Shown here: piece after piece, positions 1 through 2,132 of the stretch
How positions within the stretch are numbered: the first letter of the stretch is position 1
Layout of the letters: each line of letters begins with the position of its first letter
From: Candidatus Promineifilum breve
Lineage (GTDB): Bacteria; Chloroflexota; Anaerolineae; Promineifilales; Promineifilaceae
Direction of reading: 5' to 3'
Length of the DNA: 64,000 nucleotides
Assembly: GCF_900066015.1 (NCBI RefSeq)
Contig: NZ_LN890655.1
Coordinates: 124,001 to 188,000 of the forward strand
Notes under the pieces: generated by a model
Told to the model about the DNA's origin: nothing
Databases searched by the model: none
What the model saw: the letters and a program-made list of their open reading frames with translations, nothing else
Made by a program: the position numbers and the translations under genes

Positions 1-1216
1 AGTCGAGCACCGGTACGCCAAAGGCGTCGGTCTCGCTCGTGCCGGCCTCGATGGCCGCCATCAGCTTGTCGAAGCCGAAAATGGTCACGTGCGGGTCGAG
101 CTTGCCGGCCACGACCATGAACTCGCCATCGGGCGTCACGTCCACGCCGTGGGGGCTTTTCGGCTCCGGCACGAAGTAGAGCAGACCCTCAGCGATAGCC
201 GTTTCGAGGGTGATAACCGGGAAGTCGTTGATCATCTCCACGTTGCCGGCCGCGTAGACTTCCTTGGCCTTCTCCAGGTTGAAGACGTGGAGATAGTCCA
301 TGTCGCGCTGGCTGGCGCCGGACTCAAAGGGCGGGTTGCCCAGTTCCACGCCGCCGGTCGCCATCTCGGTGTTGATCGAGTTGCAGAACACCCAGCCTTC
401 GCTGACCAGCTTGCCGCTGTCGCACAGGTCTTGCCAGTAGGGCGGCAATTCGATGGCGAACGATTGCGCCGTATCGATGCGGCCCTTTTCGCGATCGAAC
501 TTCCAGAAGGTGATCATGCCGCGATAATCTTCTTCATAGTTCTCGATGGAACTGTAGGCGAAGCCCAGGGGCATGGCGTACTGGCCGCCCTCGACGATGT
601 AATCGGTGTCGGGGGTGACGAACGTGCCGCCGTGGTCGCTCAGGGTGATGGGGTTCTTGACGATCTGCTTGACGTCGAAGTCGCGCAGGTCGATGACGGC
701 CACGCGCGCATTGGCCTTGTCGTTGATGAACAGGAAATCGCCGTCATAGTCGCCATCCATCTCGCTAAGCGCCGGGTGATGGGTATCGGCCCAGGTCAGC
801 GGCGAGCCGTCGGGCGTCAGGCCACCTTGCTCCAGGACGCTCATCGTCCCCAGCTCCCCATAACCGAAGCCCTGCCACGGTTCGGGGGTGAAGACGGCAA
901 TCTGCTTGATGATACGCATCGATGGCAGACCGATAACGTATACCTGACCCGACTGGCCGCCCGAAGCGAATTGATAATATTCGTCGTGCTTGCCGCTGGG
1001 CGTGTAGGTTTTCACGGCGGCGGCGATATCGGCCGGCGTCAGGCCACGCGCCTCGGCAATGGCGTTGATGTCCTCCGTGGCTCCGGCGACTTGCGCCCCG
1101 GAGGCTGCTTGTTCGGCATTGTCTTGGCAACTAACGACCAGGACGGCCATGGCCGCCAGGATCATCAGTACCGTGACCAACAGCAGCGGTCGTGTTGATG
1201 ATCGGTTGAGTTTCAT
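1..1216 (-). CDS. nosZ: Nitrous oxide reductase NosZ, lipoprotein/Sec type, 3' end cut by window edge
   Basis: Catalyses N2O + 2e- + 2H+ to N2 + H2O outside the cytoplasmic membrane, the last step of denitrification. The reverse strand is open from the ATG at 1216 to the window edge (405 residues). Residues 11-30 form a hydrophobic signal ending in a lipobox-like VVSC (Cys30), as in Sec-dependent clade II enzymes; no twin-arginine motif is seen. The beta-propeller motif around DTHHP (His146/His147) followed by MDGDYDGDFLFINDKANARV is characteristic of NosZ, and a later SPHGVDV gives another expected copper-cluster histidine. The C-terminal CuA cupredoxin domain lies outside the window. A GGAAG/AGGAG region precedes the start. 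The gene follows a Crp/Fnr regulator on the same strand. Recognition of the family is firm; clade II is inferred from the signal type. Confidence 0.93.
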   Translation of the reverse strand, partial: MKLNRSSTRPLLLVTVLMILAAMAVLVVSCQDNAEQAASGAQVAGATEDINAIAEARGLTPADIAAAVKTYTPSGKHDEYYQFASGGQSGQVYVIGLPSMRIIKQIAVFTPEPWQGFGYGELGTMSVLEQGGLTPDGSPLTWADTHHPALSEMDGDYDGDFLFINDKANARVAVIDLRDFDVKQIVKNPITLSDHGGTFVTPDTDYIVEGGQYAMPLGFAYSSIENYEEDYRGMITFWKFDREKGRIDTAQSFAIELPPYWQDLCDSGKLVSEGWVFCNSINTEMATGGVELGNPPFESGASQRDMDYLHVFNLEKAKEVYAAGNVEMINDFPVITLETAIAEGLLYFVPEPKSPHGVDVTPDGEFMVVAGKLDPHVTIFGFDKLMAAIEAGTSETDAFGVPVLD

Positions 1217-1280: not shown

Positions 1281-1332
1281 TGGTGACAGGATAGCGGAAA
1301 AGGGGTGGCGGTTCTTTGCAATAATGCAAAGA
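1281..1332 (-). promoter_or_regulatory. Predicted Crp/Fnr-type operator and promoter of nosZ
   Basis: A perfect inverted repeat, TCTTTGCA-ATAA-TGCAAAGA, occupies 1313-1332; its core TTGCA-N4-TGCAA has the exact half-site spacing of FNR-family operators (TTGAT-N4-ATCAA). Reading towards nosZ, a -10-like TATCCT lies at 1293-1288, placing the start of transcription near 1281 and the operator centre at about -41.5, the classical class II activator position. No good -35 hexamer is seen, as expected for an activated promoter. The geometry is read from sequence; use by the adjacent regulator is inferred. Confidence 0.6.
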
Positions 1333-1380
1333 GGGGCGGGGGAGCAGGGGGGCGGGGGAGCAGGGGAGAAAGAGGGAAAG
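1331..1380. repeat. G-rich short tandem repeat (GGGGAGCA-like)
   Basis: Degenerate tandem units of GGGGAGCAGGGG/GGGGGAGCAGG type lie between nosZ and the Crp/Fnr gene and directly abut the nosZ operator. The same units occur inside two methyltransferase genes at 51278-51313 and 52504-52592, so this is a dispersed family. Confidence 0.7.
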
Positions 1381-1394
1381 GGTAAACCAGTTAG

Positions 1395-2132
1395 CTATGA
1401 TTTCGTGGGCGTTTGGCCGGGGTGGGGGATGTCTTCGGCCAGGACGACCAGTTCGTGGGCTTTCAGGAGGGTGATTTTCTTGCGGCCGGTGGCGATGAGG
1501 CCGTCGCTTTCCCATTTGCTGAGGATGCGGCTGACGTTGTAGAGGTTCGTGCCGGTCATCTGGGCCAGGTCTTCGCGGCTCAGGGGCATGTCGATCAAAA
1601 CCCCCTCCTCCGTGCGGCGGCCGAATTGCCGCACCAGCCGCATCAGCGCCCGCGCCACGCGCTGCTCCACGCGCTGCGTCGCCAGCTCCTGGAAGCGGCT
1701 CTGCATCTGGGCGAAGCGCCGGCCGACCATATTCAGCCCGTTGAGGGCCAACTGCGCGTTGTGTTGCATCAGGTCGAGCATCGTCTCGCGCCGCCAGCCA
1801 ACGGCCAGACACGGCTCGATGGCCTCGGCCGATAGCGGATAGGGCAGTTCGTTGAGGGCCATCACGATCCCCAGCCCTTCGCCCGGCCCGAAGTAATTGA
1901 CGATCACCTGATGCCCATCACTCGTCACCTGCGATAGCTTGGCCCGCCCACTGACAAGCACGTAGAGCATGGTCGATTCTTCCCCCTGGTGGAAGAAAAA
2001 GCTGCCGGGTGGTGTCTCATAGAGCCGGCCGGCGGCGGTGATGCGTTCGCATTCCTCCTCACTGAGGTCATGGAACAAGGCGCAGCGGCCGACGGCCTCA
2101 CAGAGATTGGCAGTGTGTTGCATGGAAACCAT
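1395..2132 (-). CDS. Crp/Fnr family transcriptional regulator
   Basis: Dimeric DNA-binding activator. Residues about 15-130 form the cyclic-nucleotide-binding beta-barrel, followed by a long dimerisation helix and a C-terminal winged helix (about 170-225) with LSREDLAQMTGTNLYNVSRILSKW. In FNR and CRP the recognition helix carries a Glu four residues before the conserved Arg; here that position is Tyr (LYNVSR), so operator specificity may differ. Four cysteines exist (C11, C17, C28, C108) but their spacing does not match FNR's C-x2-C-x5-C plus distal Cys, so an Fe-S cluster is uncertain. A second in-frame ATG at 2123 lies 9 nt after a -10-like TAAGAT and could be the true start. Position directly upstream of nosZ suggests control of N2O respiration, similar in role to Dnr/NnrR proteins; effector unknown. 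Confidence 0.88.
   Translation of the reverse strand: MVSMQHTANLCEAVGRCALFHDLSEEECERITAAGRLYETPPGSFFFHQGEESTMLYVLVSGRAKLSQVTSDGHQVIVNYFGPGEGLGIVMALNELPYPLSAEAIEPCLAVGWRRETMLDLMQHNAQLALNGLNMVGRRFAQMQSRFQELATQRVEQRVARALMRLVRQFGRRTEEGVLIDMPLSREDLAQMTGTNLYNVSRILSKWESDGLIATGRKKITLLKAHELVVLAEDIPHPGQTPTKS

Follow-up and report, generated by a model that had tools for sequence, protein, structure and literature searches.

What controls transcription of nosZ in this organism? We know of no well-characterised biological sink for N2O other than nosZ, and the locus at one end of the window (the whole 64-kb stretch of DNA analysed) raises the question directly. An open frame of 698 aa starts with the ATG at position 1216 of the minus strand, and the part of it within the window matches TIGR04246 with E = 9.7e-134. 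Upstream of nosZ, and downstream of a Crp/Fnr gene at 1395-2132, lies a palindrome.

The sequence was read directly. Positions 1313-1320 are TCTTTGCA, 1321-1324 are ATAA and 1325-1332 are TGCAAAGA. The TTGCA-N4-TGCAA palindrome described in the initial annotation is confirmed by this reading, and in fact has arms of 8 bp on either side of its 4-bp spacer. The exact pattern TTGCA-N4-TGCAA occurs once in the 64-kb window; when up to one mismatch is allowed three matches are found against 1.7 expected, so that the 10-letter core by itself is not significant in 64 kb. The longer pattern TTTGCR-N4-YGCAAA has a single match in the 5.03-Mb genome, namely the operator at nosZ, and the reversed-pattern control gave none. 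The features of the locus are collected in Table 1. Directly upstream of the operator in the direction of nosZ, a tandem G-rich repeat (two copies of ggcgggggagcaggg) occupies window positions 1331-1368; relatives have different repeats or unique sequence at this place.

Table 1. Coordinates of the features at the nosZ locus, in window positions.
Feature	Position	Strand	Description
Operator	1313..1332	.	Perfect inverted repeat TCTTTGCA-ATAA-TGCAAAGA, TTGCA-type half-sites, centre 1322.5
-10 element TATCCT	1288..1293	-	First T 29.5 bp from operator centre; TAnnnT there in 26/27 promoters
nosZ predicted transcription start	1281	-	Inferred from -10 position and conserved spacing
nosZ, Sec-dependent (clade II) nitrous oxide reductase	1..1216	-	TIGR04246; gene cut by window edge
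NnrR-type Crp/Fnr regulator, 245 aa	1395..2132	-	PF00027 + PF13545; co-directional with nosZ, upstream
Recognition helix TNLYNVSR, residues 195-202	1527..1550	-	CRP positions 178-185; covaries with operator base 6

nosZ is present in 28 of the 52 genomes of the family. The search upstream of orthologous nosZ genes suggested in the initial annotation found the palindrome in all 28, usually beside an orthologous regulator. The letters TTTGC/GCAAA are matched at all ten positions in 21 genes, at nine in five and at eight in two. The palindrome is absent upstream of two outgroup nosZ genes from other families of the same class. Its presence in front of every nosZ gene found in the family confirms that it is genuine.

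Twenty-seven nosZ sites were aligned on the palindrome, that of G056 being left out. After GCAAA a G is invariant and an A nearly so, and a TAnnnT hexamer is found exactly at centre +29.5 in 26 of the 27 sites; other offsets each occur in at most two. With the first T of the window's -10 element at -12 and the predicted start at 1281, the operator centre falls at -41.5. The class II position previously assigned on the basis of the TATCCT at 1293-1288 is borne out by this conserved spacing. In most of the nosZ-bearing genomes an orthologous regulator gene is situated upstream of nosZ. The regulator gene is 9 kb from nosZ in G011, and on a different contig in G020, G050, G062, G049 and G053; the site is still found at nosZ in each, with one half degenerate in G011. 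Two genomes (G022 and G061) have the site at nosZ, and no regulator was found in them.

The palindrome lies about 65 bp past the stop codon of the regulator gene and could fold as an 8-bp stem, as might be expected of an RNA hairpin, a terminator or a 3′ end signal of that gene. The retention of the site at nosZ where the regulator sits elsewhere argues against such a signal. Moreover, the transcribed strand has no T-run after the palindrome, the site also precedes nirS and nrfHA operons that have no regulator in front, and the spacing to the -10 element is fixed. On these grounds the hairpin or terminator was rejected, and we regard it as extremely improbable.

The Crp/Fnr protein encoded upstream has a cNMP-binding domain and a Crp-type helix-turn-helix, and its AlphaFold model (pLDDT 92) has the Crp/Fnr fold. 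The protein reads TGTNLYNVSR, with Tyr where CRP has Glu181 and FNR has Glu209, exactly as first noted. The operator of FNR, DNR and FixK is TTGAT-N4-ATCAA. The site in the window shares with it the half-site spacing, the TTG core and the class II position at -41.5, whereas its half-sites have C and A where the other has A and T. The FNR traits of Glu209 and TTGAT half-sites are absent, with Tyr in the helix and TTGCA in the operator, and the regulator does not have the conserved FNR cysteines. When it is aligned with E. coli FNR, no cysteines match the four Fe-S ones (the N-terminal cluster and C122), and no Cys column in the regulator clade exceeds 53%.

Leaving out the helix columns, we calculated a tree from 70 proteins, which of the known families covered NnrR, FNR/FixK and CRP. 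The regulators and alphaproteobacterial NnrR fall in one clade (support 97/90) with NnrR nested inside it, while CRP and FNR/FixK (support 100/95) fall outside, so that FNR and FixK form a clade separate from the regulator. Given the missing FNR cysteines and the separate clade, an FNR-type assignment was rejected. By its sequence the regulator is a relative of the nitric-oxide regulator NnrR, a better match than FNR. The supported clade with NnrR means that this genome is not peculiar in its half-site C or in lacking the Glu, both of which are traits of NnrR. The earlier comparison with FNR holds for the half-site spacing and fails for the reference family, since the C and the non-Glu residue are common to NnrR.

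Plasmid matches to the regulator agree in kind. The best are alphaproteobacterial proteins encoded beside nirK, nnrS and DUF1858, with the helix TTLHTVSR; the match on an S. meliloti plasmid, in an unannotated record, is called NnrR by similarity. Azospirillum NnrR has TTTGCGCCGGCGCAAAGA with the same -10 spacing ahead of DUF1858. The motif ctTTGcgnnnncgCAAag precedes nir, nor and nos genes regulated by NnrR in Alphaproteobacteria (Rodionov 2005, PMC1274295).

NnrR of Rhodobacter sphaeroides, Bradyrhizobium and Sinorhizobium belongs to the same Crp/Fnr clade as the window's regulator. Both have the helix frame T-x-x-T-V-S-R, no Glu at CRP position 181, a ctTTGc....gCAAag core with its flanks, and nir/nor/nos and DUF1858 among their targets. 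The differences lie at position 181 (His in NnrR, Tyr or Phe here), at positions 179 and 182 (Thr in NnrR, Asn179 and Asn/Gln182 here) and in the base after TTGC (G for NnrR, A here). NnrR is alphaproteobacterial, whereas the present system is found in Chloroflexota and has a single perfect site in the genome, at nosZ. The NnrR operator TTGCG-N4-CGCAA with ct/ag flanks is matched by the T-type members of the clade, as TTTGCGC-NN-GCGCAAAGA, and the window's operator deviates from TTGCG-N4-CGCAA by one base per half (A for G). The clade also has an NnrR-like target set (nir, nor, nos and accessory NO genes). In Nitrosophilus labii, too, a Crp/Fnr protein is the proposed regulator of clade II nosZ, with a TTGA-N6-TCAA site and Nss-like regulators, which differ from those of the window (PMC11539149).

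Does the regulator act elsewhere? Palindrome matches inside genes of relatives were many, and were discarded as chance. Among 24 other candidate sites in relatives, 18 have a -10 element at +29.5. In G019, G010 and G054 the site stands before nrfHA, in G016 and G051 before NapC/NrfH and HAO-like multihaem cytochromes, and in G008 and G060 before multihaem cytochromes; in G021 it is found ahead of a NirS-like cytochrome cd1 protein and of a CoxB/COX1-type operon. Scanning 84,980 species genomes yielded 364 relatives, and the 80 best were retained. Outside the family, these best 80 of 364 include other Chloroflexota, Acidobacteria, Latescibacterota, Planctomycetota, a deltaproteobacterium and others. 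TTTGCGC-NN-GCGCAAA lies closely downstream of many of their regulator genes, and their targets are NirS, NirK, RIC with qNOR, DUF1858 (hcp-associated) and nosZ.

Some further genes stand near such sites. In two Promineifilum relatives a gene for a fusion of a ydhR-type monooxygenase and a rhodanese follows a perfect TTTGCATTTTTGCAAA with the -10 spacing (L091 4036, L090 3778, L089 4065). In L101 (1983-3632) a perfect site is followed by a CoxB-like protein, with weak similarity to the C-terminal cupredoxin of NosZ, and a COX1-family protein; this pair is a candidate for an unusual NO reductase or oxidase. A recurrent regulator-adjacent module in L102 (7294-9642), L104 (1934-4390) and L163 (1241-4608) encodes a small cupin-like protein, a protoglobin protein and a membrane protein, and the protoglobin protein of L102 and L163 has a C-terminal stretch matching ubiquitin-like SAMP1.

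The closest relatives of the window's genome that bear a name are Promineifilum (contigs of G002 and G004). Two one-mismatch sites in the window's genome, at C1:3613534 and C2:172431, are next to or within genes that, judged by their frames, have no nitrogen-oxide link. NrfA is encoded (L291 6289-7707, G000:C1:1425546), and no such site is present upstream of nrfHA. The genome has no NirS and no match above the NirK cut-off. On motif evidence the regulator thus has no clear target in this genome other than nosZ. The organism is likely to be a nitrite ammonifier that also reduces N2O.

A fold search ranked cAMP-binding relatives first, and the PDB matches single out no ligand; the clade alignment has no invariant His or Cys to fix a cofactor. 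A Tyr-Pro pair (Y98-P99) and Trp207 are shared by all 58 members of the clade. In R. sphaeroides NnrR, Tyr93 is functionally important. The fold ranking and the lack of an invariant cofactor ligand would allow the adjacent regulator to bind the site as a repressor, or in a response to oxygen or redox state, instead of as an NO-type activator. Yet the centre at -41.5 over the -35 region, together with the fixed +29.5 spacing of the -10 element, is the layout of a class II activator, the targets are nitrogen-oxide metabolism throughout, and NnrR is an activator of such genes (PMC1274295, PMC6710368). We therefore consider repression or a redox response unlikely.

The initial annotation had also suggested that the differences in protein and operator are matched. 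A published rule states that Crp/Fnr position 181 tracks operator base A6 (Rodionov 2005, PMC1274295). In 34 of 34 assignable pairs, TTGCA sites accompany N-x-[YF]-[NQ] regulators and TTGCG sites accompany T-x-[YF]-[TS] regulators. Each site was assigned either to the neighbouring regulator or to the one class of regulator that the genome was found to have; pairs with regulator and nosZ apart rest on the sole class found in an incomplete genome. The helix/operator class is a single change on the family regulator tree, which made a test of coupling on that tree uninformative, and it was repeated on the nosZ tree. There the operator class switches five times, at least four of them on well-supported branches, and the regulator class switches along with it each time, with 26/26 genomes in agreement; these provide four independent pairs only, and a sign test gives p = 0.125. 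Both paralogues are held by G019 and G054, with the N-type beside a TTGCA nosZ site and the T-type near a TTGCG nrfHA site. Two N-type genes of genus g15 (G021b and G056b) stand beside TTGCG sites and are exceptions; they would fit only if a T-type paralogue, such as that found in G021, uses those sites.

On a wider tree, Asn has arisen from Thr at the helix position three times. The origin in Promineifilaceae goes with TTGCA and that in L259 (Chloroflexales) with the site GTTGCACTTTTGCAAA; for the third, in L232/L260, L232 has the mixed site TTTGCATTCGCGCAAA and the search of L260 gave no site. The sites at the three origins are thus seen only in part, one of them being mixed. Covariation supports the matching of protein and operator, with the lineage-specific part shifted from the C and Tyr to the next base and Asn. 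The supported novelty of the lineage is A for G after TTGC, apparently coupled to Asn for Thr in the helix. Whether this extends to a general rule we judge to be evenly balanced: residues 179 (Thr to Asn) and 182 (Thr to Asn/Gln/Ser) may be a further Crp/Fnr specificity switch that sets the base after TTGC. Such a switch would give paralogues in one cell separate operators (for nosZ and for nitrite ammonification), would have arisen at most three times from an NnrR ancestor, and would repeatedly have retuned the nosZ promoter. The UBP9 relatives L239 (4681-4696) and L240 (4675-4690) have the helix TQFTVSR and regulator-adjacent sites CTTGCCCCAGAGCAAG and CTTGCCCTGGAGCAAG respectively, possibly a further specificity variant.

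The same covariation bears on which protein binds the operator. The genome has at least one other Crp/Fnr gene (C2:127705, 28% identity), whose product might occupy the site instead. Against this paralogue, the site class tracks the NnrR-type helix class, related Chloroflexota paralogues have other helices (e.g., ATRVSINK and STPESVSR), and the adjacency of regulator and nosZ is kept in most genomes. Binding by a different paralogue is thus very unlikely.

We conclude that the palindrome is, with high probability, the site at the nosZ promoter through which the adjacent NnrR-type Crp/Fnr regulator activates the gene. A dimer of the regulator would sit on TTTGCA-N4-TGCAAA at -41.5, where it overlaps the -35 region, and would recruit RNA polymerase to the TATCCT -10 element in class II activation. 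The signal that switches nosZ on would be of the nitrogen-oxide type: probably NO, or a product of nitrite/N2O respiration. In this branch the ancestral helix would have been T-x-[YF]-T and its operator TTTGCGC-NN-GCGCAAA; one of the paralogues in Promineifilaceae would then have acquired N-x-[YF]-[NQ], and its targets TTTGCA. The site, its conservation and spacing, the target set, the covariation and the phylogeny are observed; binding, activation as opposed to repression, the ligand and the atomic contacts we infer.

A search of the open literature, which excludes most subscription journals, gave no match to the motif strings, and within that scope neither the TTGCA variant nor the occurrence of NnrR-type pairs across Chloroflexota appears to have been described. 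No described regulator for the clade II nosZ of activated-sludge and soil Chloroflexota was found in the open literature. The pair supplies a concrete regulator, operator and predicted transcription start for clade II nosZ, and ties the clade to NnrR. It also offers a natural series of changes in operator and helix from which to learn how Crp/Fnr paralogues gain separate DNA targets.
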